Of a DNA stretch of 39,536 nucleotides, positions 19,269 through 36,194 are shown piece by piece (position 1 is the stretch's first letter; every line of letters begins with the position of its first letter). The notes under the pieces are model-generated. The model was not told where the DNA came from, made no database searches, and worked only from the letters and a program-made list of their open reading frames with translations. The stretch spans positions 1 through 39,536 of the IMG/VR virus record IMGVR_UViG_3300022752_000168; one strand, written 5' to 3'. Source of the DNA: a virus. The translations under genes and the position numbers were made by a program.

Positions 19269-19634
19269 ATGGCACACGCGAGTATTAAAGCGCGCGGTCG
19301 TCCGCCTTACCAAAGAAGCGAGAGCGACGCCGCTCGCATTGAGCGCATGGCTGCTTACGGCATTACGCACGACCAAATTGCGGCGATCGTCGGCATCAGC
19401 GACGAGACGCTGCGCAAATACTACCGCGACGAACTGGACCTTGGAAAATCCAAGACGGTTGCGCGTGTTGCTGACAGCCTTGTCGAAGTCGCTATGAGCG
19501 GTGACGTGCAGGCGCAGAAGTTCTTCCTTTCAGCTCGTGGCGGCTGGAGCGAGAAGCAAACGACCGAGATAGCTGGCGAGCTTAAGGTCAACAAAATTGT
19601 CCTCCGCGGCGTCCGAGCAAACGCTAACGATTGA
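19269..19634 (+). CDS. Terminase small subunit
   Basis: The 121-residue protein has a basic start and an HTH at about 22-55 (IERMAAYGITHDQIAAIVGISDETLRKYYRDEL), then helices with ALSVEVAMSGDVQAQKFFL-like sequence (DSLVEVAMSGDVQAQKFFLS). This is the pattern of small terminases, which bind the packaging site and recruit the large subunit. It directly precedes and overlaps the large-terminase gene by 38 bases. The pac or cos site is probably in or just upstream of this gene. Confidence 0.8.
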   Translation: MAHASIKARGRPPYQRSESDAARIERMAAYGITHDQIAAIVGISDETLRKYYRDELDLGKSKTVARVADSLVEVAMSGDVQAQKFFLSARGGWSEKQTTEIAGELKVNKIVLRGVRANAND

Positions 19635-20907
19635 CATCCCTGACAAGCTCGTCCCGGTCTTTGAGGGCGTAGCGCGTTATCGGGGGTCATTCGGCGGACG
19701 GGGCAGCGCCAAGACGCGCACCTTTGCCAAGATGACGGCTGTTGCTGCCGCGACCGCCGCAGAAGAGGGGCGCTCAGGCATTATCTTGTGCTGCCGCGAG
19801 TTCATGAACACGCTGGCGGACTCCTCGCTCAGCGAGATCAAAGCCGCGATCGACAGCGAGCTGTGGCTGCAGCAGCAGTTTGAGGTGGGGAAAGAATACG
19901 TCCGCACACGGTGTGGCCGCGTCGAGTACGCGTTCACCGGCCTGCGGCACAACATCGAGAGCATCAAGTCGAAGGCGAACATCCTGATCGCCTGGGTCGA
20001 TGAGGCCGAGCGCGTCAGCGACGAGGCCTGGACAAAGCTGATTCCGACCGTCCGCGAGGAAGGGTCGGAGATCTGGGTGACGTGGAACCCGGAGCGCAAA
20101 GGCAGCGCAACGGACTTGCGCTTCCGCGGCAAGAGCGACCACGACATGCGCATCGTCGAGATGAACTGGCGGGACAACCCTTGGTTCCCCAAGACGCTCG
20201 ACGACGAGCGCTTGCGCGATCGACGCGACCGGCCCGACCAGTATCCGCACATCTGGGAAGGCGAATATGCGACCGTCGCGACGGGCGCTTATTACGCTCG
20301 CAACCTGATCGAGGCGAAGGACCAGGGTCGCTTCACGCGTCTGGCGCCGGATCCGCTGCTCAGCATCCGCAGCTATCACGACATCGGCGGGTCGGGGGCG
20401 AAGGCGGACAACTACTCGATCTGGGTGTGCCAGTTCGTAGGCAAAGAGATCCGCGTGTTGGACCACTACACTGCGAAGGGCCAGCCAATCGGCGCGCACG
20501 TTGCGTGGATGCGCAACAGAGGGTGGGACAAGGCGCAGATCATCCTCCCGCACGACGGCGTGCAGCAGGACGCTCTGGCGTACTCGTGGGAGGACCACTG
20601 GCGCGCGGCCGGCTTTACGGCGCGGGTCATTCCGAACCAAGGGCCAGGCGCTGCCATGATGCGCGTCGAGAACGCGCGGCGCTGGTTTAATCGCATGTGG
20701 TTCGACGAGGAACGCACGCAGGTCGGGCGCATCTCGCTCGGCATGTACAAGCCCAAGATCAGCAAGGAAACCGGCGCCGATCAGGGGCCGGACCATGACC
20801 TTTACTCACACGACGCAGACGCCTTCGGGCTCATGGCGTCAGACTACAAAGAACCCACCACCACAGCCGAAACCGCGGCCCGCCCGCGGTACGGCACGAT
20901 CGCTTGA
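19597..20907 (+). CDS. Terminase large subunit (packaging ATPase/nuclease)
   Basis: The 436-residue protein has Walker A GGRGSAKT (33-40), Walker B ILIAWVDEAE (Asp135, Glu136) and the coupling motif TWNP (162-165) in the ATPase half. An RNase H-like nuclease half follows with YHDIGGSGAKADNYS (Asp262), ILPHDGVQQDA (Asp320) and DLYSHDADAFG (Asp406/408). It pumps DNA into the prohead and cuts concatemers; the sequence resembles the PBSX/headful-type subfamily. The start is TTG at 19597, inside the small-subunit gene after AAGG. No better start exists before the conserved FEGVARYRGSFGG. Confidence 0.92.
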   Translation: MSSAASEQTLTIDIPDKLVPVFEGVARYRGSFGGRGSAKTRTFAKMTAVAAATAAEEGRSGIILCCREFMNTLADSSLSEIKAAIDSELWLQQQFEVGKEYVRTRCGRVEYAFTGLRHNIESIKSKANILIAWVDEAERVSDEAWTKLIPTVREEGSEIWVTWNPERKGSATDLRFRGKSDHDMRIVEMNWRDNPWFPKTLDDERLRDRRDRPDQYPHIWEGEYATVATGAYYARNLIEAKDQGRFTRLAPDPLLSIRSYHDIGGSGAKADNYSIWVCQFVGKEIRVLDHYTAKGQPIGAHVAWMRNRGWDKAQIILPHDGVQQDALAYSWEDHWRAAGFTARVIPNQGPGAAMMRVENARRWFNRMWFDEERTQVGRISLGMYKPKISKETGADQGPDHDLYSHDADAFGLMASDYKEPTTTAETAARPRYGTIA

Positions 20908-22930: not shown

Positions 22931-23442
22931 TGGCTATGATGCTCGTCCGTTCACGCATCACGCGGCCGAACGACACGACCCCGTACGCGGTGGGCGATCT
23001 GCTTGCCAACTCGACGACCGCGGGCAGCGTCACGCCGTTCACGTTTACCCATGACGGCGTCGTGCAGCCGGTGCAGGTAAGCCGCTTCATCATGAAGTCG
23101 TCGCAGGATTTGGTCACGAACAAGAACTTCCAGCTTTACCTGTTCTCGCGCTCGCCGACCGTCACCAACGGCGACAACGGCGCATTCGCCGTGACCGCTG
23201 CCAACGGCGTTGACAACCTCGGCGGCGTGTACGGATCGTCAGCAGCGGTCAACACGGGTGCGGGGGCGATCAACTATCTCTACCCGCTGGACGCGGCCGG
23301 CACCTTCGCCAACGGCTGGATTCCGCAAGTGTTCGCCCTGCCGTTCTTCGGCCTCATCAAGGTCAACGCGGCCTACACGCCAACGGCGCTGGAGACGTTT
23401 GAACTCAGCGCCGAGTGCGACATGATCTCATATGGCAGATAG
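22930..23442 (+). CDS. Beta-rich head-associated protein (probable decoration or minor capsid)
   Basis: The 170-residue protein is beta-rich and low in charge (RITRPNDTTPYAVGDLLANSTTAGSV..., SRFIMKSSQDLVTNKNFQLYLF). The 'I..pndTtpYaaGDvi..st' opening followed by 'i.ra.l..s......f.l.lf...Pt' is common in phage head proteins next to portal or scaffold genes. It overlaps the portal start by 11 bases. A role as head decoration protein is inferred. Confidence 0.6.
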   Translation: MAMMLVRSRITRPNDTTPYAVGDLLANSTTAGSVTPFTFTHDGVVQPVQVSRFIMKSSQDLVTNKNFQLYLFSRSPTVTNGDNGAFAVTAANGVDNLGGVYGSSAAVNTGAGAINYLYPLDAAGTFANGWIPQVFALPFFGLIKVNAAYTPTALETFELSAECDMISYGR

Positions 23443-25747
23443 CTCTAGTTACGCCCAGTTCGGCAGTCAGGCCGAACGTGAGGCCGAATTGCTCCGACTG
23501 CTGAAGGGCGAAGAGAACGACGCCCTCGGCTATCGTCAGAGCGAGTTGCAGCAGCAGCAGATCGATGCGCTGAAGCACTTCTTTGGCGAGCGCTATGGCG
23601 ACGAGGAAGACGGACGCTCGCAGGTCGTCACCCGTGAGGTTTTTGAGGTCATCGAGTGGACCATTCCTGACCTCATGCGCGTATTTGCCGGCGGCAATAA
23701 CGTCGTCTACCTCGAAGAGACGAGCCAGCAGGATGCGAAGTTCGCGCGGGATGCGGCGGACTACCTCAATTGGATCTTCTACACCGACAACTTCGGCTAC
23801 GAGCTGCTGCACGACTTTGCGTTCGACGGCCTGTTGAACCGTCGCGGCTTCCTGGCCTGCTACTGGCGCGAGAAGGAATATTACGCGCCGGAGACCCTGA
23901 CGGGCCTCAACATGCCGCAGGTGCAGCAGATCGCGAACGATCCGAACCTGGAGATCGTCGGCCAGGATTTCGACCAAGAGACCGACGCGGGCGGCATCAC
24001 GCTACAGGTGCGGCGCGTCAAGGCGTGCGCGCGGGTCGAGATCACGGGCGTCGCGCCGGAAGACATGCGGCTGAACGGCCGCGCCGTTGACATCGATAAT
24101 GCGCGATATGTGGGGCGTGTCGTCCGTATGCTGCGCGGCGAGGTCGCGGCGATGTGGCCGGACAAGGCCGAGCAGATCCGCGCGTACAGCGGCAGCGCAG
24201 TCAGCGGGCCGCAGAACATCCGCCGCGGGTCTGACGTGCGTATGGTCCGCTTCAATGACCAAAGCGACGACTGGCAGGCAACGGGCAACAATCCGGCGCA
24301 GCAGCTCGAGCTGCTTGAGGAGTACCTGCGCGTTGACCTCAACGGCGACGGCTACCCGGAACTGATCCGGTCCTACCGCGTCGGCGACCTGATCCTGGAA
24401 GAGTCCGAGGTCAACGAAAATCCGTTCGGCTCGTGGACCCCGATCCGCGTGCCGCACCGCTTCTACGGCCTGTCGATGCACGACATCACGGCGGACCTGC
24501 AGCGGCGCTCGACCGTGCTGACGCGCGCGGCGCTCGACGCGGTCTATCAGAGCGTGATCAACCGCGAGGCGTTTGACCGCAACCGCGTGAACGTCGATGC
24601 GCTGCTTGCCACCTACGCCGGCGCGAAGATCCCCGTGGACGGCGATCCTGGCAGCGCGATCATGCCGCTGACGGGCGGGCTGGATACGGCCAAAACCGCA
24701 TGGGACGCGCTCAATCAGTTGACCGCGACCTTGGAGAACCGCACCGGCGCCACGCGCCAGACGCAGGGCGTGGACCCTGACGCGCTGCTCAAGGGCGCGC
24801 ACTCAGGCAAGGCGATCGACCTCCTGCAGACCGCAGGCGCGGCGCGCAAAGAGGTGATGGCGCGCAACATGGCCGCGGGCCTTGAGCGCTTCTTCGCCAA
24901 GCTCTACCGCCTGGTGTGCCGTCATCAGAACGAGCCCATCCAGACGCGTGTGGGCGGCAAGTATGCGCAGTTCGATCCGCGTGAGTGGAACCAGAACCTG
25001 CGCGTGCATATCCACACCGGCACGGGCACGGGCAATCGTGACCAGACCGTTGCGGGGCTCAACCTGATTGGCCAGGCCATGCAGGGCATGGTGGAGATGG
25101 TGGGGCCGGACAATCCGGTGATCACGACGGAACATCGCTATCGCTGGTTCGAGGAACTGTGCCGCGCGCTGGGCTATCGCTCAGCCGAGCCGTTCGCTGC
25201 CGAGCCGCCTGAAGTGCCCGTGCAGGGGCCAAACGGGCAGCCGGAGATCAATTCGGAGACAGGACAACCGGCCACCAAGCCGTGGTCGCCGCCGCCCAAG
25301 CCTGACCCTGCGCAGATGAAGGTGCAGGCCGACATGCAGGCCACGCAGGCGAAGATGCAGACCGACACGCAGATGGCGCAACTCAAGCACGGGCTTGAGC
25401 AGCAGAAGGCGCAGATCGACGTGCAGATGCAGGAGCGCCGCGCGCAGGCTGACATGGAGATTGCGCGCTACAAGGCCGAGCTTGACGCGCAACTGGCGCG
25501 CGACAAAGCGGCGGCCGAGGCGGACCTCGCGCGAGAGAAGTCCGCGCAGGAATTGCAACTGGCGTACGCCAAGCTCGAGGCTGAGACGCAACTCGCTCGC
25601 GAGAAGATGCAGATCGAGGCTGAGGTTGCGCGCCAGAGCGCGAAGCTGAACGCCAAGGCCAAGGCGTCCGCGAACGGCGCCGACATCGGCGACGACGATG
25701 ACGACGCCTTGCCGTCGTACCGATCGGGCGGCGCTTTGGATGAGTGA
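23432..25747 (+). CDS. Portal protein (P22-like)
   Basis: The 771-residue protein matches large P22-type portals: an N-terminal region with EVFEVIEWTIPDLMRVFAGG, NWIFYTDNFGYELLHDFAFDG and LLNRRGFLACYW, a central clip/stem region, and VPHRFYGLSMHDITADLQ around residue 350. A C-terminal run of some 130 residues (about 625-745) is a continuous Gln/Ala/Lys/Glu helix, like the barrel of P22 portal that extends into the head. Twelve copies form the DNA gate at one vertex, docking the terminase and later the adaptor. It is preceded by head proteins and followed by the scaffold. Confidence 0.9.
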   Translation: MADSSSYAQFGSQAEREAELLRLLKGEENDALGYRQSELQQQQIDALKHFFGERYGDEEDGRSQVVTREVFEVIEWTIPDLMRVFAGGNNVVYLEETSQQDAKFARDAADYLNWIFYTDNFGYELLHDFAFDGLLNRRGFLACYWREKEYYAPETLTGLNMPQVQQIANDPNLEIVGQDFDQETDAGGITLQVRRVKACARVEITGVAPEDMRLNGRAVDIDNARYVGRVVRMLRGEVAAMWPDKAEQIRAYSGSAVSGPQNIRRGSDVRMVRFNDQSDDWQATGNNPAQQLELLEEYLRVDLNGDGYPELIRSYRVGDLILEESEVNENPFGSWTPIRVPHRFYGLSMHDITADLQRRSTVLTRAALDAVYQSVINREAFDRNRVNVDALLATYAGAKIPVDGDPGSAIMPLTGGLDTAKTAWDALNQLTATLENRTGATRQTQGVDPDALLKGAHSGKAIDLLQTAGAARKEVMARNMAAGLERFFAKLYRLVCRHQNEPIQTRVGGKYAQFDPREWNQNLRVHIHTGTGTGNRDQTVAGLNLIGQAMQGMVEMVGPDNPVITTEHRYRWFEELCRALGYRSAEPFAAEPPEVPVQGPNGQPEINSETGQPATKPWSPPPKPDPAQMKVQADMQATQAKMQTDTQMAQLKHGLEQQKAQIDVQMQERRAQADMEIARYKAELDAQLARDKAAAEADLAREKSAQELQLAYAKLEAETQLAREKMQIEAEVARQSAKLNAKAKASANGADIGDDDDDALPSYRSGGALDE

Positions 25748-26039: not shown

Positions 26040-27074
26040 ATGACGACGGAACTAAGCGGCGAAGATGCCAGCATCCAAGCGGCAACGGCGAAGATCCTCA
26101 GCCTCGGGCCATCGGCCTGGGGTGATGATGTGCCTGCGCAAGCTCCGAAGCAGCGCGAGAACCGTCTCGATCGTGACCCCATCGAAAGAGAAACCAGCAC
26201 GGACCTAGCCGAATCCGAAAAGGAAGAGGCACAGGGCCAGGCTGACCAGAAGGCCGAAACCAAGGCGCCCGAAGAGGGTGCGGCGGACTATCTGGAAATA
26301 CCCGGCGAGGAAGGCCAAGAGGCGGAAAAGGTTCCGCTGGCTGACGCCGTCGAAGCCATCAAACAAATGCGAGCGCTCCAGGGCGACGTCGCGTCAGCAG
26401 TCAACAAAGCGGAAGCGGAATATCAGGAAAAGGTCGATGCGGGCCTAAGCGAGATGTCGCGCGTCTATGACGCCGTCATTCAGCAGGCGCGGACTGTCAT
26501 CCAGTCCATGCCGTCGCCACAGCCGCCAGACCGATCCCTGATTACCCAAGACCCGGAAGTCTACCAACTGCTCCTGCAGCAGTACGAGTATCAGGTGCAA
26601 ATGCTGAATGGTGCGCAAGAGCGTGCGCAAGAGGCGGCGAAAGAGCAGGCGCAAGTTCGCCAGCAGCAAGCCGCCTTGCGCATGCAACGCGAGAACGAGC
26701 GGCTTGGTCGTTATATCCCTGAGTGGAAAGACGAGAAGAGCCGCACGGACCTCGCGTCACGCATGAGCGAGTTCATGTCGAAACAGTACGGGCTCGACGA
26801 GGCGACCATGAACGAGGTCGCCTTCGATCACCGGCTTGTACGCGCCATGCACGAGCTGATGACGCTCAAAGCGCAGGCGAGCAAAGCACCCGAGGTTCGC
26901 AAGGAAGTGCAGGAACGTGCGCCGAAAATCACGAAGGCCGCCCCGTCGCAACAACGTGCGCCGGATGGTCGTTTCGCGAACGACGCCGCCAAGCAGTTGA
27001 AGGATTCCGGATCGGAAGAAGCCGCAGCCCGTTTGTTCCTGTCTGACCCGCGATTTAAGTCGCTCTTTGCTTAG
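26040..27074 (+). CDS. Scaffolding-type head assembly protein
   Basis: The 344-residue protein lies just before the major capsid gene, as scaffolds do. It has an acidic, disordered N-terminal third (TDLAESEKEEAQGQADQKAE...), a long Gln/Ala/Glu-rich coiled-coil middle (about 100-240), and a C-terminal region with PDGRFANDAAKQLKDSGSEEAAARLFL. Composition, length and position all fit an internal scaffold that guides capsid assembly and is removed before packaging; no protease for it is encoded nearby. The 9-base gap to the preceding gene has its SD-like GGAA. Confidence 0.75.
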   Translation: MTTELSGEDASIQAATAKILSLGPSAWGDDVPAQAPKQRENRLDRDPIERETSTDLAESEKEEAQGQADQKAETKAPEEGAADYLEIPGEEGQEAEKVPLADAVEAIKQMRALQGDVASAVNKAEAEYQEKVDAGLSEMSRVYDAVIQQARTVIQSMPSPQPPDRSLITQDPEVYQLLLQQYEYQVQMLNGAQERAQEAAKEQAQVRQQQAALRMQRENERLGRYIPEWKDEKSRTDLASRMSEFMSKQYGLDEATMNEVAFDHRLVRAMHELMTLKAQASKAPEVRKEVQERAPKITKAAPSQQRAPDGRFANDAAKQLKDSGSEEAAARLFLSDPRFKSLFA

Positions 27075-27076
27075 CG

Positions 27077-27093
27077 CTCATCCAGTAGATGAG
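27077..27093 (+). promoter_or_regulatory. Hairpin ahead of the major capsid start
   Basis: CTCATC (27077-27082) and GATGAG (27088-27093) form a 6-bp stem with loop CAGTA, 8 bases before the capsid ATG at 27102. The SD GAGG (27091-27094) is largely inside the stem. It may stabilise or cleave the mRNA between scaffold and capsid or tune capsid translation. No T-run follows, so it is not a classic terminator. Confidence 0.45.
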
Positions 27094-27101
27094 GTTATGA
27101 C

Positions 27102-28073
27102 ATGACGACGTATACTACATATACCCAGATCGGCATTCGCGAAGACTTGTCGAATGCTATCTATGACATTAGTCCATTAGATTTTCCCTTCATGACGTCC
27201 ATCTCCCGCGGCGCACCGGCTAAAAACCGGTTCGTTGAGTGGCAGACGGACGCCTTGGCCACGGCAGTCACGACGAACCAGGCGATCGAAGGCGCCGACG
27301 CGTCCTACTCGACCGCAACGCCGACCGTCCGCCTTCGGAACTTCACGCAGATCTCGCAGAAGAGCATCAGCGTGTCGGGCACGGCGCAGGCGGTGACGAC
27401 GGCGGGTCGCGAGGAAGAATTGGCTTACCAGATCGCCAAGCGCTCGAAAGAGATCAAGCGCGATATGGAAAGCTCGTTCACGCAGAACATTGCTTCGCGC
27501 GCTGGCTCTGCATCGACGGCCCGCCGCATGGCCGGCTATGAGGCGTGGATCACCACGAACACGTCGCGCGGCACGGGCGGTTCTAGCGGCGGCTATACCG
27601 CTGCGGGCACGGTCACGGCGGCGACGGATGCGTCATCGACGAACCAACGGACCTTCACGGAAACGCGCTTGAAGTCGGTCATCCAGCAATGCTGGTCGAG
27701 CGGCGGCAATCCGAACCTCGTCATTGTCGGGCCGATCAACAAGCAGAAGGCTTCGGCCTTTGCGGGCATCACGACGAAGTTCTCGGAGTTCGGCAATCCG
27801 TCGTCGTCGGCGGCGCTGACGATTGTGGCGGCCGCAGACCTGTATTTAAGCGATTTTGGCAAACTCAAGATCGTGCCGAACCGCTTCAGCCGAGAGCGGT
27901 CATGTTTGGTCATCGACCCGGAATACTGGTCGATTCACTACCTGCGTCCGTTCGCCGTCAACCCGATCAACAAGACGGGCGACGCAGACAGGCGTCAGTT
28001 GATTACCGAGTACACCCTGTGTTCGCGCAATCAGCGGGCGTCAGGAATTTTGGCGGATTTGACGACGACTTAG
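27102..28073 (+). CDS. Major capsid protein (SU10-like)
   Basis: The 323-residue protein follows the SU10 major capsid family (DUF5309): an early DLSNAIYDISPLDFPFMTSI, the segment FVEWQTDAL, RLRNFTQISQKSISVSGTAQAV, a long acidic helix KEIKRDMESSFTQN and the C-terminal ADRRQLITEYTLCSRNQRASGIL. These proteins have the HK97 fold and form the icosahedral shell. Its first dozen codons are AT-rich compared with neighbours, typical of highly expressed genes with an open start. It follows the scaffold and precedes an inserted HNH gene. Confidence 0.9.
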   Translation: MTTYTTYTQIGIREDLSNAIYDISPLDFPFMTSISRGAPAKNRFVEWQTDALATAVTTNQAIEGADASYSTATPTVRLRNFTQISQKSISVSGTAQAVTTAGREEELAYQIAKRSKEIKRDMESSFTQNIASRAGSASTARRMAGYEAWITTNTSRGTGGSSGGYTAAGTVTAATDASSTNQRTFTETRLKSVIQQCWSSGGNPNLVIVGPINKQKASAFAGITTKFSEFGNPSSSAALTIVAAADLYLSDFGKLKIVPNRFSRERSCLVIDPEYWSIHYLRPFAVNPINKTGDADRRQLITEYTLCSRNQRASGILADLTTT

Positions 28074-28108
28074 GTGGTTGTAAGCTGATAGTCCGGACAC
28101 CACATATG

Positions 28109-28126
28109 TTGCACTGAGAGGTGCAA
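28109..28126 (+). promoter_or_regulatory. Hairpin holding the SD of the HNH gene
   Basis: TTGCAC (28109-28114) and GTGCAA (28121-28126) form a perfect 6-bp stem ending 1 base before the ATG at 28128. The only SD-like sequence, GAGAGG (28116-28121), lies in the loop and first stem base. This would hinder ribosome access. Homing endonuclease genes of T4 use similar RNA hairpins to limit translation. Formation in vivo is unproven. Confidence 0.55.
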
Positions 28127-28127
28127 A

Positions 28128-28730
28128 ATGACGTGTGTGGTGGACGGCTGTCAGAGGCCCATTTATGTCAAAAAGCGCGAGCTTTGCTCGGCCCATTACA
28201 ACCGCCTGATAACAACGGGCAGTGTTGAGGACACGATCAAGGCTCGCGCGCCTTTTGAACAACGGGTCTGGCGGCAAATCGAGAAGCGAGGGCCAGACGA
28301 GTGCTGGCCGTGGACGGCAAAATCAAAGGTTACTGGCTACGGCACGATCGGGCGCGGTGGGCGTGACGGCGAAAAGGTGCTGGCGCATCGAGCCGTTTGG
28401 GAATTGACCAACGGACCAATCCCTAAGGATGGCCCCGGCCATCACGGCTGGGTCGTGCTGCACACCTGCGACAATCGATTGTGCTGCAACCCTGCGCATC
28501 TGCGACTCGGCACGCAACGCGACAACGTCAAGGACATGGACGGCAAGCGCCGGCGCAAGACGGTGGCGCGTCAAGGCGAAGCGCACTCACAGGCCAAACT
28601 TACCGAGGCCGACATTCGGGACATTCGCGCCAGTTCGCTGAACAACGCGGAATTGGGCCGGCACTACGGTGTTGAGCGCCAAACAATCCGATCCATCCGG
28701 ATCGGCAATACATGGTCACGCGTAAAATAG
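28128..28730 (+). CDS. HNH homing-type endonuclease inserted after the capsid gene
   Basis: The 200-residue protein has an N-terminal zinc-knuckle-like C..DGC...C..HYNR (Cys3, Cys8, Cys20, His23), the HNH core VLHTCDNRLCCNPAHLRLGTQRDNV (about 110-134) and a C-terminal helix-turn-helix of the type KLTEADIRDIRAS...ELGRHYGVERQTIRSI...NTW. This finger/HNH/HTH order is typical of phage intron- or intergenic-homing nucleases. Its location between major capsid and the next head gene in a virion operon is not explained by capsid assembly. The downstream gene's AGGAG follows its stop at once, as expected for a compact insertion. Confidence 0.85.
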   Translation: MTCVVDGCQRPIYVKKRELCSAHYNRLITTGSVEDTIKARAPFEQRVWRQIEKRGPDECWPWTAKSKVTGYGTIGRGGRDGEKVLAHRAVWELTNGPIPKDGPGHHGWVVLHTCDNRLCCNPAHLRLGTQRDNVKDMDGKRRRKTVARQGEAHSQAKLTEADIRDIRASSLNNAELGRHYGVERQTIRSIRIGNTWSRVK

Positions 28731-28743
28731 GAGAGCGACCGCA

Positions 28744-29145
28744 ATGGCGGACGATAACGACAACGGACAAGACCCGACCCTGGAACTGGCCCCGATCAAG
28801 CGCGGCCCTGGCGGTCGCCCTGTGCGCGCGCCGGAGCCTGAGCCCAAGACGAACGACGTCGCTGCAGCGCTCAGCAAGGTGCTGGCCGCGGCGCTTGGCG
28901 ATGTGGTCGCCAAGGAGCCGGAAGTGCGGTTGCCGGACGATCGCGGCGAGGTGCGCCTGCGCGCTAATCGCGGCTTTCACGTTGCGGCCGAGCATCTCGC
29001 GCGCTCGCAGATCGAGGGCAGCGTGTACGGCATGGACGGCATGGGCATCACGGTGGAGCAAAACCAGCTCTTCATCGTGCGGCCTGGCGCGCATGTGGAT
29101 TGGCTGCTCGACAACGGCTTTGCCCGTCCGGAGCGCGCCGCTTGA
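28744..29145 (+). CDS. Hypothetical protein of the head-completion region
   Basis: The 133-residue product has a disordered acidic N-terminus (MADDNDNGQDPTLELAPIKRGPGG...), then a helix AAALSKVLAAALGDVV and a compact alpha/beta part with RGFHVAAEHLARSQIEGSVYGM. I do not recognise it. It lies between the HNH insertion and a conserved phage protein and ends in a TTGA overlap with the latter. An AGGAG SD (28730 onward) precedes it. Confidence 0.55.
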   Translation: MADDNDNGQDPTLELAPIKRGPGGRPVRAPEPEPKTNDVAAALSKVLAAALGDVVAKEPEVRLPDDRGEVRLRANRGFHVAAEHLARSQIEGSVYGMDGMGITVEQNQLFIVRPGAHVDWLLDNGFARPERAA

Positions 29146-29486
29146 GCGTGCTGCTTGATGTGAACCCGTGGGGCGCCGTCGAGACGATGAGCTTTGACCA
29201 CGCGACCGGCAATCTCACGATTGCGCGGACGACCGACATCCAAGCGATCTTGGACAATAACGCCGAGCTGGCTGCGGGGTTCAACAAGAAGGGCGACTGG
29301 TGGCCGATCGCCAGCATTCCGCTTGAGGTGTTGGCCGACTGGCTCAAGGAATACGAGACGGAAACGGGCCGCACGATCGGCTCGCCGTTTAGCGACGACG
29401 AGGACTGGAACAAGTGGTGTTATGGCCGCTTGGACAGCAATGAGTTCCTGAAGCTCCGCACCGGCCATTTCAGGATCGGCCGATGA
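29142..29486 (+). CDS. Conserved-type phage virion-region protein of unknown function
   Basis: The 114-residue product from a TTG start at 29142 (overlapping the previous stop, 8 bases after GGAG) has the pattern 'D..tg.ltI.r.tDi..il..N......f..kgdww.iAsIPl.vl..w......G......dde.w.kw.....s.efrtr.G+', which is common in podovirus-like genomes near the tail module. GTG at 29148 is an alternative start. Its precise role is unknown. Confidence 0.6.
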   Translation: MSVLLDVNPWGAVETMSFDHATGNLTIARTTDIQAILDNNAELAAGFNKKGDWWPIASIPLEVLADWLKEYETETGRTIGSPFSDDEDWNKWCYGRLDSNEFLKLRTGHFRIGR

Positions 29487-30865
29487 ACGAGCGGGGCGTC
29501 GATACTGAGATTGAGCGGCTGATCGAAACCGCTCAACAGGCCCTGGAGGCGGGCGACCGCGGCCGGGTCATCATTGCATGTGACGAGGTGCTGCGGCGTG
29601 AGCCGGCGCAGGTCGATGCGCTGTTCCTGGCGGGAACGGCGTTTCTCGGCGGCGGCAATCCGGGGCTCGCGTTGCAGATGTTCAACACGGCGCGGGCCGC
29701 GACGCAGGACGGGCGCAAGCTCGCCGCGATATGGAACAACATCGGGGCGTGTCTTCAGGACAACCACCCGGCTGAGGCGTATAAGGCGCTGATCAAGGCG
29801 TTGGAGTACAGCGAACCGCGGGAGACGTACGACAACCTTTGCAACGTGTCGTCGCAGATCGGGCGGCACGCTGAGGCGTTGGATTGGGCCGAGAAGAGCG
29901 AGCGCGAAAGCCGCAAAGATGCGAGCTACAACCGCTCGTTTGCGCTGTTCAGCCTTGGCCGTTGGCGTGAGGCTTGGGCGGCGTTTGACAAGGCGATCCC
30001 GAACCGTGACGGCGCGGCAAGGTCGTTTGGCTTCCCGCGCTGGGACGGCAAGTCGGGGCGTCCGGTCATTCACGGCGAACAGGGCATCGGTGATGAGATC
30101 CTGTTCCTGTCGATGCTCAAGCCCGACTTTGACGGCGTGATTGAGTGCAACGCGCGCAATGCCGCGCTGGTGCAGCGCTCGTTCCCGGCGGCAAGCGTCT
30201 ACGGCACGCTCGGCGAAAGCGTGATCGATTGGTGCGAGATCGAGGAGCCGACCCATGAGATCGAGATGGGCGGCCTGGGCACGCTCTTTGCGCCGGAGCC
30301 TTTCCGCCGCGGTGCGTTTCTTAAAGCGGATCCGGCGAAGGTCGCCATGTTCCGCGCCTGGCTTGACGGCGCGGCCAAGCAGCCGATCCGCATCGGCGTG
30401 GCGTGGACGGGCGGCTCGTGGTCAACGGGACGCCTGAGGCGGTCGCTGCCGTTCGAGCAGGTGATGCAATTGCTGAGCATCCCCGGCGTGACGCCGGTTT
30501 GCCTTGAGTACGACGACAGGACCAAGCAGCTCGAGCCGTGGAAGCACGTCCTGTACCCCAAATGGGCCGTGCAGAAGGGCGCGGACTTTGACGATACGGC
30601 GGCGCTCGTGTCGTCGCTTGATCTGGTCATTTCGGCCACCACGAGCGTCGTGGACCTGTGCGGCGCGCTCGGCGTCGAGTGCTGGGCCATGGTGGATGCA
30701 CATCCGCAATGGCGGTACTCGCCGCAGGCCGGCAAGGATCGCATGTGGTTCTATGAGTCGGTGCGGACGTTCCGCCAGCGGCCGGATGAGACCGGCTGGG
30801 GGCGTGTCGTCAGCGAGGTGCGCAAGGCCGTGCTTGAGCGCTTCCCGCTGGAGCGCGCGGCATGA
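29483..30865 (+). CDS. TPR-domain glycosyltransferase
   Basis: The first 180 or so of 460 residues are TPR-like helical repeats (AGDRGRVIIACDEVLRREPAQVDALFLAGTAFL is the first, then AAIWNNIGACLQD and ASYNRSFALFSLGRWREAW). The second half resembles GT9-like, GT-B-type transferases linked to TPRs, with HGEQGIGDEILFLSML (about 197-212), IECNARNAALVQRSFP and SLDLVISATTSVVDLCGALGVECWAM (about 380-405, a nucleotide-sugar-binding-like loop). TPRs usually hold the protein acceptor, so it may glycosylate a virion protein. It starts the sugar cassette and overlaps its neighbours by 4 bases on each side. Confidence 0.75.
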   Translation: MNERGVDTEIERLIETAQQALEAGDRGRVIIACDEVLRREPAQVDALFLAGTAFLGGGNPGLALQMFNTARAATQDGRKLAAIWNNIGACLQDNHPAEAYKALIKALEYSEPRETYDNLCNVSSQIGRHAEALDWAEKSERESRKDASYNRSFALFSLGRWREAWAAFDKAIPNRDGAARSFGFPRWDGKSGRPVIHGEQGIGDEILFLSMLKPDFDGVIECNARNAALVQRSFPAASVYGTLGESVIDWCEIEEPTHEIEMGGLGTLFAPEPFRRGAFLKADPAKVAMFRAWLDGAAKQPIRIGVAWTGGSWSTGRLRRSLPFEQVMQLLSIPGVTPVCLEYDDRTKQLEPWKHVLYPKWAVQKGADFDDTAALVSSLDLVISATTSVVDLCGALGVECWAMVDAHPQWRYSPQAGKDRMWFYESVRTFRQRPDETGWGRVVSEVRKAVLERFPLERAA

Positions 30866-31398
30866 GGGACGGCGTCTTCATTCATCCGATGGCGGTCGTT
30901 CATGATGATTGCAAGATCGGCAAGGGCACGAAGATTTGGCAATTCGCGAGCATTCTGCGCGGGGCAGAGCTTGGCGAGGATTGCACGGTCGCAAGCGGGG
31001 CGTGCTTTGACGGCAGCCGCGCCGGCAGCCGCACGATCCTGAGCCACAATCTCGCGGCAGGGCCGGGCTTCTGGCTGGGCGATGATGTGTTCATTGGCCC
31101 GAACTGCTGCTTGGGCAACGACGCTTGGCCGCGGGCGCGCAAAGACGGGTTCGACGTGCGGGCCTTTGACGGCACGCGCTGGGCCATCGTGATCGAACAC
31201 GGCGCGAGCGTCGGGGCGATGTCGATGGTCCTGCCGGGCGTCACGATCGGGCGTAACGCCATGATCGCGGCGGGGTCGGTGGTCAGCAAGAACGTGCCGG
31301 CCAATCATCTGTTCGTGAAAGGCGTGTGCAAGCCGATCGCGAAAGAGGCGGATCGCATGCGGTTCGCGCAGGAAGAGTTGGGGCTGGTGCGGCAATGA
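30862..31398 (+). CDS. Hexapeptide-repeat N-acetyltransferase (WlbB/FdtC-like)
   Basis: The 178-residue protein is a left-handed beta-helix acyltransferase: FIHPMAVVHDDCKIGKGTKIWQFASIL, then GEDCTVASGACF, DVFIGPNCCLGNDAWPRA and GVTIGRNAMIAAGSVVSKNVP. The 'GKGTKIW.F..I', 'F.GPN....ND..PR' and 'GASVGA...' elements match enzymes that N-acetylate UDP- or dTDP-3-amino sugars (WlbB and FdtC relatives). It lies between two glycosyltransferase genes, so it probably supplies or trims an acetylated amino sugar. The substrate cannot be read from sequence. Confidence 0.8.
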   Translation: MRDGVFIHPMAVVHDDCKIGKGTKIWQFASILRGAELGEDCTVASGACFDGSRAGSRTILSHNLAAGPGFWLGDDVFIGPNCCLGNDAWPRARKDGFDVRAFDGTRWAIVIEHGASVGAMSMVLPGVTIGRNAMIAAGSVVSKNVPANHLFVKGVCKPIAKEADRMRFAQEELGLVRQ

Positions 31399-32018
31399 TT
31401 ACCGTTGCAACCCTGCTCTGGCAGTCGAACGCCCACAGCCTGCCCACGTCCTGCTGCTATGATGAGACATGGGCTGAGAAGCTATATCGCGGCTTCGCCC
31501 GCAACCTCACGCAGCCGTTTAGATTCGTGGTGTTCACGGACAGGCCGCGCCGGTTCGGCATTCCGATCGAGCAGCGGGCCATCCGCGAGGACCCGCCGAC
31601 GTATGCGTGTTGCCTTGAGCCGTACCGCATGGACGTGCCCATGATCTTGGTCGGGCTCGACACGATCGTGACGGGGAATATCGACCACCTCGCAACCTAC
31701 TGCCTGACGGCGGACAAGGTGGCGGTGCCGCGCGATCCGATCTTTACGGATACGGTGTGCGACGGCGTGCATCTGGTGCCGGCGGGGTTCGCGCATTGGT
31801 ACGAAGAGGCGGCCGGCGCGAACGACATGGAGTTCATCCGGTCCCGCAAGGATCAGGTGAACGTCATTGACGACATGTGGCCGGGGCACGTCCGTAGCTA
31901 CCGCTGCGACATCAAAGACAGGGGCTTCGGGGATACGCGGATTGCGTACTTCCACGGTCAGCTTAAGCCGCATGAGATCGTCGATCGTGAGCCCTGGGTT
32001 CGGAGGCACTGGCAGTAA
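31395..32018 (+). CDS. Small GT-A-type glycosyltransferase-like protein
   Basis: The 207-residue protein has features of GT-A transferases found in phages: an N-terminal VATLLW..., a central YRMDVPMILVGLDTIVTGNIDHLA (about 77-98) where the LDT replaces the usual LDLD metal-binding DxD, and a C-terminal HG..KPHE...W. Its ATG overlaps the acetyltransferase stop. The altered DxD could mean weak metal dependence or a changed sugar donor. It closes the three-gene glycan cassette before the adaptor gene. Confidence 0.7.
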   Translation: MITVATLLWQSNAHSLPTSCCYDETWAEKLYRGFARNLTQPFRFVVFTDRPRRFGIPIEQRAIREDPPTYACCLEPYRMDVPMILVGLDTIVTGNIDHLATYCLTADKVAVPRDPIFTDTVCDGVHLVPAGFAHWYEEAAGANDMEFIRSRKDQVNVIDDMWPGHVRSYRCDIKDRGFGDTRIAYFHGQLKPHEIVDREPWVRRHWQ

Positions 32019-32690
32019 ATGGCGCTGACGAACTACGGAACGCTTCGCGCCGCCGCGCTCGACTGGTCGTGGACAACGGGCAGCCTCACCGACACGACGA
32101 TGGCGAACGACATCTTCCCGATCGTGCAGAGCCAAGTCTATTGGGGCGACAAGACCGCAGGCATGCAAGAGATCGAGCCGCTGCGCATCCGGTCGATGGT
32201 TTCGACGGGCACGTTCACACCGGCCACCGGCGGCACGGTGACGATCTCGTCGGACGTCTCGAGCTCGTGGCTCGAGTTCATCGAGCTGGTGCCCGTCTAC
32301 AATTACGCGCGGTCCATGAGCTACGTCGAGCCGTGGAGCTTCCGCAAGCAGGTGGACGCGCTTTCAAGCACGGTTGCGCCGCAATGGATTTACACGGTGG
32401 AGGGCGACACGCTCTATGTCGCGCCGGCTGCGGTGCAGACGATCCGCGCGGCTTGGTACGCGAAGTTTGCGGCGCTCAGCAGCGACGCCTCGACCGACTA
32501 CATCATCACAAACGCCCCGCAGGTGTACCTGTACGGCATGATCGCGCAGGGGTGCTTGTACACGCAGGACGATCGGTATGCGCAGTTCCGGGCGTTGTTC
32601 GCGGGTGCGATCAAGGCCCTCAACGATACGGACCAACAGCAACGGGCAAGCGGGTCGCAGTCCGTCGCACGCCCGCGGGTGGTGATTTGA
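32019..32690 (+). CDS. Head-tail adaptor (SU10/P22 gp4-like)
   Basis: The 223-residue protein has the adaptor-type helical/beta build: TNYGTLRAAALDWSWTTGSL, ANDIFPIVQSQV..., and the long C-terminal helices YIITNAPQVYLYGMIAQGCLYTQDDRYAQF...ALNDTDQQQRA. This matches podovirus adaptors that ring the portal after packaging, such as the SU10-type adaptor and P22 gp4. It starts immediately after the glycan cassette and overlaps the next gene. The function is well supported by fold-type pattern and order. Confidence 0.75.
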   Translation: MALTNYGTLRAAALDWSWTTGSLTDTTMANDIFPIVQSQVYWGDKTAGMQEIEPLRIRSMVSTGTFTPATGGTVTISSDVSSSWLEFIELVPVYNYARSMSYVEPWSFRKQVDALSSTVAPQWIYTVEGDTLYVAPAAVQTIRAAWYAKFAALSSDASTDYIITNAPQVYLYGMIAQGCLYTQDDRYAQFRALFAGAIKALNDTDQQQRASGSQSVARPRVVI

Positions 32691-33127
32691 TGCAAACGAT
32701 TTTCGGGGAAATCACGCTGCAGGATATGCGGGCGTCGCGGCAGATCACGGAAATGGTGATGCCGATGGTGGCGCGTGCGTGCCAGTTTGCGGGCGGACGG
32801 TGGACGCCTGAAGAGGTCGCGGACGGTCTGATTGATGGCCGGTTCCGCCTGTGGGGCGCGATGCGTCCGCCTGCGGACCTTCAGGCGGTGGCGGTCACGT
32901 TCCTTGAGCCCGAGGGCAAGCCGAAGCGCGCAATGGAGCTGTTGCTGCTCGGCGGGCCGGACATGCGGGCGATGTTCAAGTTCCTGCCGGCCATGCAGAA
33001 GCTTGCGCGCCAGCAGGGCGCGGCCGTGATGCGTGTGCATGGCAAAAGGTCTTGGCAGGACCACATGGGCGACGACTGGAAGCCGGTTGTAACCATATAC
33101 GAGCAGGCCGTTGGCGAAGCTGGTTAA
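32690..33127 (+). CDS. GNAT-like virion-region protein
   Basis: The 145-residue protein from ATG 32690 (overlapping the adaptor stop) has a C-terminal AMELLLLGGPDMRAMFKFLPAM and AAVMRVHGKRSWQDHMGDDW, the 'v.GR.gW.r.l...gw' ending of GNAT-like proteins found among tail and internal-virion genes of podoviruses, such as T7 gp13. Clear acetyl-CoA-binding R/QxxGxG/A residues are not seen, so the fold may be structural. The larger upstream frame belongs to the adaptor. Confidence 0.55.
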   Translation: MQTIFGEITLQDMRASRQITEMVMPMVARACQFAGGRWTPEEVADGLIDGRFRLWGAMRPPADLQAVAVTFLEPEGKPKRAMELLLLGGPDMRAMFKFLPAMQKLARQQGAAVMRVHGKRSWQDHMGDDWKPVVTIYEQAVGEAG

Positions 33128-34583
33128 GATCGACTTCCCGCCGGGCTTATCGCGGCGCGGCACGCTCTACGAGACGCAGGGGCGGTGGTACGACGCGAGC
33201 CTGGTGCGTTGGCTCGAGGGGTCCATGTACCCCGTGGGCGGCTGGTCGGTGCGCTCGTCGGCGGCCTTGAGCGGGTCGGCGCGGGCAATACTGGCGTGGG
33301 TGGACGAGAGCGCGAACGTCTTCGTTGCGGTCGGCACGAATACGAAGCTCTACTATTTCACGGCGAGCGCAACGACGGGCACGGACATCACGCCGAGCGG
33401 CCTGACGACGGGGCGCGCGGACGCATTGGACGGCGCGGGCTATGGCGCCGGGAACTACGGCGCTGGCCTCTACGGCACGCCGTTCATCAACTACTCGACC
33501 GTGCAGGAGGCCGACCGCTGGACGTTCGACACGTACGACAGCTCGCTGCTGGCGTGCCTGACGAGTGACGGCCGCATTTGGAACTGGCCGCGCACGGGCT
33601 CGCCCGCGGCGCTGACGAATGCGCCGACGAACTGCAAGGGCGTGCATGTGACGCCTGACCGGTTCGTGTTTGCGCTGGCGGCGGGCGGGTATTCGCGGCT
33701 GGTGCAATGGTCGGACCAAGAAGCGCCGACGACATGGACGCCCGCGTCCACGAACCAAGCGGGAGACTTTACCCTGCAGACGCAGGGGCGCATTCAGTGC
33801 GCGGGGTCGGGCCGGTTCGGCACATTGATCTGGACCGACCTCGACGTGCACTTGGCGCAGTACATTCGCCTGCCGTACGTCTACACGATCAATCAGGTGG
33901 GCGATCAGTGCGGGATTATCTCGAAGGCGGCGTTCGCCATCGTGGACAGCGCAGCCTTCTGGATGAGCCCCAACGGGTTTTTCAAGTTCGAGGGCGGCGG
34001 CGCGCAGAAGCTCGGCTGCGAAGTGTTCGACGCCGTCTTCGGCGACTTCAACCGCGTGCAGGCGAGCAAGACGTGGGCTTGGTACAATTCCAAGTACGGC
34101 GAGGTGTGGTGGCATTATTGCTCGGCAAGCTCGACCGAGATTGACCGCTACGTCGCCTATAATCCGCGTGAGGATCATTGGACGCTCGGCGCCTTGGTCC
34201 GCACGACAGGGTCTGATGCGGGCGTGCTGGGCTTCCCAGCGCTGATGGGTTCTGACGGGCTCATGTACAATCATGAGATCGGCACGTCGTGGGGTGGGTC
34301 GTATCCGTATGCGGACAGCGGCCCGACCGAGATCGGTCAGGGCGACACGATCGCGCGCGTGCGGCGGGTTATTTTCGACGAGAAGACCAGCGGCGACGTG
34401 CGGGTGAGCCTCAAGACGCGTGATTGGCCGAACAGCACGGAAACGACGTCCGGGCCATATGCGAGCGGCAACCCGGTGAGCGTGCGCGTCGCGGGTCGCC
34501 AAGTGCGGCTGCGTGTGGAGTTTCTGCAAGCGGGCGAGTGGGGCACGCCGCGGCTTGAGATCATCGAAGGGGGCAAGCGTTGA
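33111..34583 (+). CDS. Packaged-DNA stabilisation / tail-hub-like protein (P22 gp10-like)
   Basis: The 490-residue protein opens KLVKIDFPPGLSRRGTLYETQGRWYDASLVRWLEG and has an early ALDGAGYGAGNYGAGLYGTP (about 107-126), the YG-rich loop of P22 gp10-like stabilisation proteins. The rest is beta-propeller-like with repeated LxW/DLD segments (TWTPASTNQAGDFTLQTQG, LIWTDLDVHLAQY). It should bind below the adaptor to close the tail. The start is TTG at 33111, overlapping the previous gene by 17 bases with AGG upstream. Confidence 0.75.
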   Translation: MAKLVKIDFPPGLSRRGTLYETQGRWYDASLVRWLEGSMYPVGGWSVRSSAALSGSARAILAWVDESANVFVAVGTNTKLYYFTASATTGTDITPSGLTTGRADALDGAGYGAGNYGAGLYGTPFINYSTVQEADRWTFDTYDSSLLACLTSDGRIWNWPRTGSPAALTNAPTNCKGVHVTPDRFVFALAAGGYSRLVQWSDQEAPTTWTPASTNQAGDFTLQTQGRIQCAGSGRFGTLIWTDLDVHLAQYIRLPYVYTINQVGDQCGIISKAAFAIVDSAAFWMSPNGFFKFEGGGAQKLGCEVFDAVFGDFNRVQASKTWAWYNSKYGEVWWHYCSASSTEIDRYVAYNPREDHWTLGALVRTTGSDAGVLGFPALMGSDGLMYNHEIGTSWGGSYPYADSGPTEIGQGDTIARVRRVIFDEKTSGDVRVSLKTRDWPNSTETTSGPYASGNPVSVRVAGRQVRLRVEFLQAGEWGTPRLEIIEGGKR

Positions 34584-34786
34584 GGTTTCAACCGGCGCCG
34601 CCGCAATATTCAGCGACCGAGCAGAACGAGTTTCGGGCCAACGTCGCGCGCGAGATGAACACGGTGCTGCGCTCCGATCGTGATGTTGAGTTGGTCACGA
34701 CGCGCATCATCCTGCGCAGCCCCAACGGCTCGCGCTGGGCGCTGACGGTGAGCAACGCGGGCGCCCTGTCGGTGACCGCCCTATGA
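34580..34786 (+). CDS. Small tail-region protein
   Basis: The 68-residue product begins at TTG 34580 overlapping the previous stop (TTGA). It has an N-terminal Pro-rich part with a helix (TEQNEFRANVAREMNTVL) and a C-terminal beta hairpin with RSPNGSRWALTVSNAGALSVTAL, a motif typical of tiny phage tail or head-completion proteins. The exact role is unknown. It overlaps the next gene by 4 bases. Confidence 0.55.
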   Translation: MRFQPAPPQYSATEQNEFRANVAREMNTVLRSDRDVELVTTRIILRSPNGSRWALTVSNAGALSVTAL

Positions 34787-34992
34787 GAGTGACCATCGAC
34801 GAGGCGGCGTGGCAGGCGCGAGGCGTGCCGACGATCGTCGAAGATAACCGCGTGCGCGTGCGTCTGCTGAATGACCACGCGTCGCATGTGTGGATTGACC
34901 TACAGCGCGAGGGCGATTGCGTCCTGCTCGCGGTCGATCGTTCTTCCCTGCATCGCCGCATCGCTGAAGCGATCGGCGTTTCCGAGGTGTAG
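34783..34992 (+). CDS. Small hypothetical tail-region protein
   Basis: The 69-residue product is alpha/beta (MRVTIDEAAWQARGVPTIV..., VRVRLLNDHASHVWIDLQREGDCVLLAV). No family is recognised. It starts in an ATGA overlap with the previous gene and ends 2 bases before the next ATG, so it belongs to the coupled series between stabilisation and ejection proteins. Confidence 0.5.
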   Translation: MRVTIDEAAWQARGVPTIVEDNRVRVRLLNDHASHVWIDLQREGDCVLLAVDRSSLHRRIAEAIGVSEV

Positions 34993-34994
34993 CG

Positions 34995-36194
34995 ATGGCC
35001 GGCATGTTTGGCTTCAGCGCAAGCAAGAGCAACCAAAAATCAAGCTCTAACTCTACCGAGACGACGACGCCCAACGTGCCGGAATGGCTGCGGGCTCCGA
35101 CTGCCGAATACGTCGATCAGTGGCGCAACATGATCGGGGAGACGGAAAACCCGTCGCTTTACACGGTCGGAGAGAACAGCAATCAGGTCAACGCGTATCG
35201 GAATGCGCAAGGCATCGGCCCCAACGCCGGCATGACGCAGGGCCAAGGCCTGACGGGCGAATTGGCGAACGCCTCGCTCGTGTCCGGAATGCCGTATATG
35301 TGGCAGGCTGGCGCGGGCTTGCAGGGGCTTGGCAATTACAACGCGCCAAAAACGACCATGCCGCAGGATTGGCAGGCGTCGCTGACGTCGCCCACGGGCA
35401 ATTACAACGCCAACACGCTCGCCGGGACGGACCTGTCTTCATACTTCAGCCCGTTTCAGTCGCAGGTCATCGACGCCTCGATGGGCGATTATCGCAACTT
35501 GCTCGCCGAGGGCATGAATTCGATCAAGGCCAACACGCCGCAAGGCGCGTATGGCGGATCGCGTCAGGGCGTGGCGATGGGCCAGTTCGCGGCGGATGCG
35601 GCGCGCGGTCAGGCTTCGCAACTGGCGGGCTTGCGGCAGTCGGGCTTCCTCAACGCGCAGAACGCGGGCCAATTCGACGTGGGCAACCGCAACCAGTTCC
35701 AAGGCCAACAAAACGCCGACTTGTTCTCGGCCAGCAATCAAAATGCTGCGGCGCGGAATAACCTGCTCTCGCAGCGCAACGCGGCCGACATCAACACGCA
35801 GCAATTCAACAGCGGCCAGGACCTGGCGAGCGCCGGCCTTCGTCGTGGCGTGTATGGCGACCTCGCCGGGCTTGGCGCCAGCATTAACGCGCAGGAGTTG
35901 CAAAAGGCGAACTTCCAACGCGGCATTGCGGGCGATTTGTTTAGCCAGGGTGTGGCGGGCAATGCCGATGCGCGTGCGAATACAAGCCTGCTGCAGCAGA
36001 CGGGCGACAGCATGCGCGACGTGCAGCTCGCCAACAATCCGCTGCTCGCGCGGTTGCAGTACCTCGGCAACCTTGGCGGCATGCTCGGCTACTCGAATGC
36101 GGACCTGTTCACGGGCAGCACGACAACGGGTTCGTCGAGCAGCAAGGGCAGCGGTACAAAATTCGGCGCAGAAGCCAAATTTGGAGGGGCGTAG
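34995..36194 (+). CDS. Ejection/internal virion protein with GGSRQG motif
   Basis: The 399-residue protein is Gln/Asn/Ala/Gly-rich. Its centre has FQSQVIDASMGDYRNLL...AYGGSRQGVAMGQFAADAARGQASQLA (about 150-215), a pattern very common in podovirus and roseophage internal proteins ('VVDASL.D......GAFGGSRQG'). The N- and C-termini are low-complexity Ser/Thr tails. I infer it is carried in the virion and helps DNA entry; a tail-needle part is the alternative. It is followed after 3 bases by the next ejection-type gene. Confidence 0.65.
   Translation: MAGMFGFSASKSNQKSSSNSTETTTPNVPEWLRAPTAEYVDQWRNMIGETENPSLYTVGENSNQVNAYRNAQGIGPNAGMTQGQGLTGELANASLVSGMPYMWQAGAGLQGLGNYNAPKTTMPQDWQASLTSPTGNYNANTLAGTDLSSYFSPFQSQVIDASMGDYRNLLAEGMNSIKANTPQGAYGGSRQGVAMGQFAADAARGQASQLAGLRQSGFLNAQNAGQFDVGNRNQFQGQQNADLFSASNQNAAARNNLLSQRNAADINTQQFNSGQDLASAGLRRGVYGDLAGLGASINAQELQKANFQRGIAGDLFSQGVAGNADARANTSLLQQTGDSMRDVQLANNPLLARLQYLGNLGGMLGYSNADLFTGSTTTGSSSSKGSGTKFGAEAKFGGA

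Follow-up and report, generated by a model that had tools for sequence, protein, structure and literature searches.

The window, i.e., the whole stretch of DNA analyzed here, is the 39,536-base IMG/VR virus record IMGVR_UViG_3300022752_000168, which represents a phage that is temperate by gene content (both an integrase and a repressor are present). Within the window, a cassette of three genes (29483-32018) encodes a tetratricopeptide repeat (TPR) glycosyltransferase (TPR-GT), a hexapeptide acetyltransferase with left-handed beta-helix (LbH) fold and a small GT-A-like transferase. As a preliminary description of this DNA had stated, these genes are joined by 4-base overlaps and are flanked by SU10-type head genes on the left and by the SU10 adaptor gene on the right. 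The features of the cassette and its borders are:

29157..29486 (+), phrog_3982 gene (PHROG match, 8.1e-11; start codon uncertain), left border of the insertion site
29483..29486 (+), ATGA overlap of the phrog_3982 gene and the TPR-GT gene
29483..30865 (+), TPR-glycosyltransferase (P0001), 460 aa
29507-30004 (+), helical TPR part of P0001 in the structure model, residues ~9-174
30041-30847 (+), GT-B domain of P0001 in the structure model, residues ~187-455
30862..30865 (+), ATGA overlap of the TPR-GT gene and the acetyltransferase gene
30862..31398 (+), hexapeptide (LbH) acetyltransferase (P0002), WlbB/FdtC-like, 178 aa
31395..31398 (+), ATGA overlap of the acetyltransferase gene and the GT-A-like gene
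31395..32018 (+), small GT8/glycogenin-related GT-A-like transferase (P0003), "GLD" subfamily, 207 aa
31653..31661 (+), codons of G87-L88-D89 of P0003, aligned to the glycogenin DxD motif (first Asp replaced by Gly, last Asp retained)
32019..32690 (+), SU10_adaptor, head-tail adaptor (Pfam/PHROG match, 3.6e-16), right border of the insertion site

The start of P0003 is the ATG at 31395, as the GTG frame from 31326 represents a mechanical extension, and its stop codon (TAA, 32016-32018) directly abuts the adaptor ATG at 32019. None of the three cassette proteins contains a strong hydrophobic segment (the highest mean over 19 residues was 1.54).

The preliminary description had proposed structure prediction and a fold search for the cassette proteins, and P0001 was confidently modelled as a TPR part followed by a GT-B domain (predicted local distance difference test score, pLDDT, of 94). 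The input was a 66-sequence alignment (A5) of the window and fetched loci, in which four of 69 TPR-GT sequences, i.e., two from named phage records as well as L150 and L154 (odd ends), were left out. A Pfam scan of P0001 found TPR_12 (2.8e-7), and the TPR_2 model matched 64/66 TPR-GT members. The first Foldseek matches of the P0001 model were the bacterial O-GlcNAc transferase (OGT) 2jlb (2.8e-10), SPINDLY and then further OGTs, with values for the first four ranging from 2.8e-10 to 7.9e-10; P0001 thus shares with these GT41 enzymes an N-terminal TPR superhelix and a C-terminal GT-B domain. In a second structural comparison, OGTs reached Z scores of 17-19 with a root-mean-square deviation (rmsd) of ~15 Å, and designed TPR proteins reached the same Z. 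Conversely, residues 187-455 superposed on the GT9 structure 3tov with a Z of 17.6 and an rmsd of 3.4 Å over 251 residues. Glyco_transf_9 (PF01075) was found in 8/66 TPR-GT members at E<=0.01 (best 4.5e-4; P0001 was not among them), and the GT41 Pfam model gave no match to P0001 at E<=1. According to the model, P0001 is thus a TPR plus GT-B protein with an OGT-like build and a GT9-like catalytic half, and we do not file it as GT41. Residues invariant in all 66 TPR-GT members are G198, E199, Q200, G203, D204, G310, G311, R320, Y343 and G397. In addition, asparagines spaced 32 residues apart in the TPR part are conserved to a lesser extent (N86 in 57/66, N118 in 52/66 and N150 in 47/66 members) and resemble the asparagine ladder in the TPR part of OGT. 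The TPRs may bind protein acceptors, as the preliminary description had assumed.

P0002 matches the Pfam family Hexapep (PF00132; 1.1e-23) in four stretches, which correspond to left-handed beta-helix hexapeptide repeats. Its closest solved chains are 7s43, 7s3u, 4mzu (WxcM-like) and 3mqg (6e-26 to 3e-21), all of which we take to be 3-N-acetyltransferases; WlbB and FdtC are the names that presumably apply to this group. The scores were 91-94 bits for 7s43, 7s3u and 4mzu and 79 bits for 3mqg, as compared to 45 bits or less for other LbH enzymes, including QdtC with 33 bits. Residues N86, D87, P90 and R91 of P0002 were invariant in all six aligned sequences, and an N/ND..PR segment is common to P0002 and 7s43, 7s3u and 4mzu. 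P0002 hence resembles the WlbB/FdtC-type sugar N-acetyltransferases, from whose systems the phage differs in that no partner amino-sugar biosynthesis genes were matched.

P0003 matches PHROG 1962 ("glycosyltransferase"; 3e-34), and a P0003-family profile of 62 relatives finds the Skp1 galactosyltransferase 6mw5 as well as glycogenins (best 2.2e-5) across the DxD region. This likeness to GT8 enzymes goes along with differences, as the subfamily associated with the acetyltransferase is shorter than glycogenin and carries GxD in place of DxD; none of the 62 family members matches any Pfam family. The structure model of P0003 was poor (pLDDT of 48.6, built from only 6 sequences). The preliminary description had regarded the presence of LDT in place of LDLD as an oddity of the third gene; the motif is indeed present, but it represents a subfamily trait rather than a peculiarity of P0003. 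Among the 62 P0003-family sequences, the first DxD position is Gly in 49 (P0003 included), Asp in 12 and Gln in one, so a window-specific mutation is ruled out. The residue corresponding to D89 is retained in all 62 sequences, and an H-G-x-x-K segment is conserved in the GLD form. The acetyltransferase adjoins 44/48 GLD relatives (the window itself excluded); 6/12 DLD copies also score as acetyltransferase-adjacent, and those contigs hold a second transferase copy after the acetyltransferase. Given the prevalence of Gly and this adjacency, the GLD motif characterizes a subfamily that goes together with the acetyltransferase. A tblastn search of P0003 against 50,697 phage records yielded no match at 1e-3, while a P0003 relative from locus L034 used as query against the same collection found two records, XacN1 and phiNP.

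A TPR-GT profile search yielded 381 relatives, and the best 80 were taken for locus analysis; the 85 TPR-GT copies collapse to 69 at 80% identity. The counts of positions exclude the window and 13 duplicate loci but still include near-identical contigs, and genes on the contigs were called by six-frame translation and by hidden Markov models built from the same loci. Among 84 TPR-GT copies, 68 loci showed both a capsid gene and an adaptor, 14 were cut or lacked one recognised flank, and two were located elsewhere. The TPR-GT gene was located between the capsid gene and the adaptor in all 68 uncultured-phage loci showing both (67/68 within 4 kb and 6 kb), i.e., among the best 80 of 381 relatives. 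The capsid gene belonged to SU10_MCP in 52 and to Phage_capsid_3 in 16 of these loci. The expectation, voiced in the preliminary description, of sugar genes in phages lying away from the virion genes thus fails for these lineages. At least one further putative sugar or methyl gene was found between the TPR-GT gene and the adaptor in 61/68 loci, in many combinations. This number decreases to 53/68 when only library-supported families are counted, i.e., the acetyltransferase, the P0003 family, the c17 and c24/c35/c84 methyltransferases, GT9-like c19, FkbM c22 and DegT c85.

The acetyltransferase and the small transferase together occupied this interval in 9/68 loci. A search for the trio near SU10-like capsid genes, which the preliminary description had suggested, found it in the same place in the IMG/VR contigs 3300023179_000202, 3300023179_000307 and 3300046011_003664, with identities to the window of 85/95/97%, 67/64/62% and 46/67/56% for genes 1/2/3, respectively. 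A Bradyrhizobium metagenome-assembled genome likewise carries the full trio, on a contig of 41.6 kb (L163). TPR-GT searches of the 50,697 phage records found five in all, i.e., MW202512 (in the slot between capsid gene and adaptor), Rhizobium phage RHph_X2_30 (elsewhere) and three Synechococcus phage records. In RHph_X2_30 (L002, 5742-9275), the TPR-GT homology lies within a protein of 1177 residues whose annotation reads "glycosyltransferase family polysaccharide biosynthesis", and no annotated head gene is present within the 17 kb fetched. Larger cassettes (L049, L051, L054, L055, L058, L062, L063 and L068) include genes for sialyltransferase-, GT8- and GT9-like proteins, methyltransferases, a DLD transferase, the acetyltransferase and more transferases; portal or gp6-like connector genes lie beside or inside those of L054, L055, L058, L062 and L063. 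In two further groups of loci (L115, L131 and L135; L097, L129 and L130), genes for radical SAM/SPASM proteins and DegT aminotransferases occupy the slot or adjoin it, and some relatives with such genes may make unusual sugars themselves.

As a control, loci were sampled by their capsid genes (the best 80 of at least 556 capsid relatives, with 79 new loci counted and the carrier L077 left out). The TPR-GT gene was found between capsid gene and adaptor in only 2/65 of these loci, one of which was an already known contig (3/66 if L077 is included); this capsid-sampled scan did not return the two nearest relatives, L016 and L076. The distance from the phrog_3982 gene to the adaptor had a median of 3 nt in loci without the cassette (upper quartile 474 nt, n=72) as compared to 2892 nt in carriers (n=54), and the TPR-GT gene started at a median of -6 nt relative to the end of the phrog_3982 gene (n=59). 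The rarity of the TPR-GT gene in capsid-sampled loci and the distances between phrog_3982 gene and adaptor indicate that the cassette is an accessory, precisely placed insertion.

Compared to 3300023179_000202, the nearest relative, the ratio of nonsynonymous to synonymous substitution rates (dN/dS) was 0.13 for the TPR-GT gene, 0.09 for the acetyltransferase gene and 0.06 for the GT-A-like gene (capsid, 0.155; portal, 0.096); the corresponding values against the two more distant contigs were 0.28-0.40 at high synonymous divergence. These ratios show that the cassette is under purifying selection, and the values of 0.06-0.13 rule out that the three genes represent a degenerate remnant. Distances between TPR-GT sequences were correlated with those of capsid (Mantel r = 0.87, n=50) and portal (r = 0.94, n=36), about as closely as those of capsid and portal with each other (r = 0.86, n=46). 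The GT8-like c8 gene followed the capsid less closely (r = 0.50, n=22), and its correlation with TPR-GT was 0.61 (n=39).

In 63 records, the acetyltransferase gene was followed by a P0003-family gene; 51 of these are distinct at a DNA identity of 95%, and in some cases a viral contig and a genome contig represent the same prophage. In 58/63 records, the locus holds a library-identified packaging, head or connector gene in the same orientation, and in 39/63 this applies to both sides, with gene identities taken from library matches and the annotation of the records. Among 64 acetyltransferase copies, the partner located up to 2.6 kb away was c15 (PHROG 4603, sialyltransferase) for 25, c39 (a protein that resembles c15 by eye and has no Pfam match) for 10 and TPR-GT for 13 copies, while 16 copies had neither. 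In all nine loci on bacterial-genome contigs that include the third gene, a library-identified phage gene for packaging, head or connector functions lies in the same orientation (two of these contigs are near-identical and come from one assembly). The situation named in the preliminary description as speaking against its proposal, i.e., homologues found only in host O-antigen clusters with degenerate phage copies, was thus not seen, and residence in such clusters only is ruled out by these nine genome loci.

The library scan and profile matches identified the following further genes in the window:

7667-8701 (-), tyrosine integrase
11930-12637 (-), repressor
14044-15861, primase/polymerase-like gene
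19597-20907, terminase
23432-25747, SU10_portal (Pfam/PHROG match, 1.9e-149)
27102-28073 (+), SU10_MCP major capsid protein (Pfam/PHROG match, 5.6e-97), candidate acceptor of the modification

An HNH endonuclease gene (28128-28730) follows the capsid gene; it looks like a homing-endonuclease insertion, as the close relatives L016 and L018 carry no such gene at that point. A DNA similarity search of positions 27000-36000 against the phage records gave no match, and an Rfam scan found nothing reaching the gathering threshold. Between positions 27000 and 33200, no sigma-70-like promoter was found as compared to 1.2 expected by chance (shuffling), and eight terminator-like sites were found as compared to 4.7 expected, including one within the TPR-GT gene, which was taken as a chance occurrence.

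With moderate confidence, we interpret these gene-level data as pointing to an accessory virion-glycosylation cassette that is expressed late within the head operon. The LbH enzyme would N-acetylate an amino-sugar nucleotide supplied by the host, the TPR superhelix of the TPR-GT would bind an assembling virion protein to which this enzyme would attach the first sugar, and the GLD-type GT8-like transferase would add the acetylated sugar or extend the glycan. The likely benefit would be an altered and variable particle surface, affecting adsorption, stability or shielding. As relatives replace the acetyltransferase/transferase pair by other transferases and methyltransferases, the TPR-GT would be the element of the system that is retained and the glycan the one that varies. 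More tentatively, the locus might be a hypervariable virion-glycan locus in the head operon, in which an OGT-like TPR-GT inherited with the capsid recognises a particle protein and the adjacent genes for transferases, methyltransferases, acetyltransferases, aminotransferases and radical-SAM enzymes are exchanged, which would diversify the sugar coat in a manner similar to that of bacterial O-antigens. The positional specificity, the co-inheritance, the OGT-like build, the absence of strong hydrophobic segments and the existence of records without a detected integrase together argue for a role in the lytic cycle, and most of all for a virion acceptor. The virion protein glycosylation proposed in the preliminary description is partly supported by a junction-tied, selected cassette with a TPR plus GT-B main enzyme, with a virion protein as the putative acceptor.

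A number of observations weigh against this interpretation. The fraction of Ser plus Thr in the capsid protein was not higher in carriers (median 0.189, n=59) than in other loci (0.199, n=73); the phrog_3982 protein did show more Thr in carriers (0.072 vs. 0.050), a difference confounded by lineage and base composition. Matches to DegT aminotransferase (PF01041) and epimerase/dehydratase (PF01370) were absent from all 17 records searched (the window among them); the acetyltransferase gene is present in 16 of these. The "acetylated amino sugar" of the preliminary description would therefore require a host-made precursor. The window phage is temperate, and host conversion is therefore possible. 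Two TPR-GT copies (L002 and L121) lie away from the slot, the whole-chain superpositions of P0001 on OGTs are poor, and several neighbour labels are weak, as c8 (GT8-like, E 0.0097), c16 and c87 fall below Pfam cut-offs and c33, c49, c39 and c132 were assigned by eye. The acetyltransferase tracks the capsid (Mantel r = 0.81, n=11), so swapping is not seen for this gene, and Mantel tests on related sequences measure linkage, not function, which means that the co-divergence may reflect linkage alone. In Citrobacter phage phiNP (L243, 6415-7600), a cultured enterobacterial phage, a gene annotated as "alpha-2,3-sialyltransferase" overlaps a P0003 relative between lysis and terminase genes, i.e., away from the head genes. 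Finally, the slot also holds unrelated genes, i.e., a GDSL hydrolase in phiM5 and an HNH gene in RHph_N3_2, and position alone is thus a weak argument. The GDSL/SGNH hydrolase in the slot of Sinorhizobium phage phiM5 (L011, 7728-9038) is annotated as detected in the phage particle proteome.

The main and serious rival, although on balance we regard it as rather unlikely, is a late modification of the host surface, in which lipopolysaccharide or capsule sugars of the host would be altered during lytic growth, or to a weak extent in lysogens, which would keep progeny from sticking to debris or exclude competitors. GT8-, GT9- and WlbB-type enzymes are typically lipopolysaccharide enzymes, the 3mqg record is itself named as such, a host-made amino sugar is required in any case, and the related pair in phiNP lies away from head genes. 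The integrase and repressor of the window phage also fit such a role, as does the interpretation of pelagimyophage GT8 genes as O-chain modification in excerpts of PMC7029224. On the other hand, a tyrosine integrase was found in only 9/24 carrier records of at least 37 kb (10/39 of all records searched, which may be fragments), a serine recombinase in 0/15 of the long records without tyrosine integrase, and no sigma-70-like promoter was found at 27000-33200 around the cassette, whose head-gene location recurs across phages of three Pfam capsid families. GtrA and acyltransferase-3 were each absent from all 25 records searched, window included. The cassette thus shares with GtrABC lysogenic conversion the encoding of sugar transferases by a temperate phage, but differs from it in the absence of a GtrA match, in the lack of strong hydrophobic segments in the window proteins and in its placement in the head operon.

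We consider it improbable that the phrog_3982/adaptor junction is merely permissive, with the sugar genes being hitchhiking morons of diverse or transient non-virion functions. Such cargo would account for the other genes in the slot of phiM5 and RHph_N3_2 and for the low frequency of the TPR-GT gene in capsid-sampled loci, but not as readily for the bias of TPR-GT-associated cargo towards sugar and methyl genes (61/68; 53/68 strict), the co-divergence of TPR-GT with capsid and portal, or the proximity of the acetyltransferase/transferase pair to packaging, head or connector genes also in phages whose heads are of other types. It appears highly improbable that the three proteins are incorporated into particles in a lectin-like or structural role, with an inactive GLD transferase; the first DxD Asp is replaced in the pair-associated subfamily, but the last Asp is conserved in 62/62 sequences, as is the H-G-x-x-K segment of the GLD form, and the GT-B residues are invariant in 66/66. 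Least probable of all would be the glycosylation of hypermodified phage DNA as a protection against restriction. While phage glycosyltransferases often serve DNA modification according to passages of PMC12619734, the TPR and acetyltransferase parts do not fit this function, and a thymidylate-synthase-type match was found in 0/25 records, window included (the search covered this route to hypermodified bases only); DNA hypermodification was dropped as a first choice for the latter reason.

Virion glycosylation as such is already known, and the window cassette would represent a variant form of it. For mycobacteriophages, glycosylation of capsids and tail tubes through phage transferase and methyltransferase genes is attributed to Freeman et al. 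2023 in passages of PMC11256854, PMC11600133 and PMC12619734, and this study is also cited in PMC10955285 and PMC13313380. The phages concerned (Che8, Rita and cluster O) are said in these passages to decorate capsid and tail-tube proteins by means of phage glycosyltransferases, accompanied in cluster O by an O-methyltransferase gene, and the window cassette resembles them in encoding glycosyltransferases, as judged by homology and fold. It differs in gene placement and content, as the passages locate the mycobacteriophage genes close to the genome's 3' end in Maravista and, in cluster O, as a tandem of three behind the O-methyltransferase gene, whereas the window cassette lies in the head operon of an SU10-like phage and combines an OGT-like TPR-GT with an acetyltransferase. 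A passage of PMC10783043, which deals with alphaproteobacterial phages, mentions a single glycosyltransferase within a cluster of myophage type but no counterpart of the window cassette, and no description of the cassette was found in the open-access literature searched, which leaves most subscription journals outside.

Among tailed phages, the sources cited above report virion glycosylation for certain actinobacterial ones. If the virion-glycosylation interpretation is true, such modification would extend to many uncultured phages, with a recognisable position in the genome and with a combinatorially variable glycan, and the cassette would include an OGT-like enzyme whose protein substrate plausibly sits in the same operon. 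This would bear on the recognition and stability of phage particles as well as on finding or making glycosylated particles.

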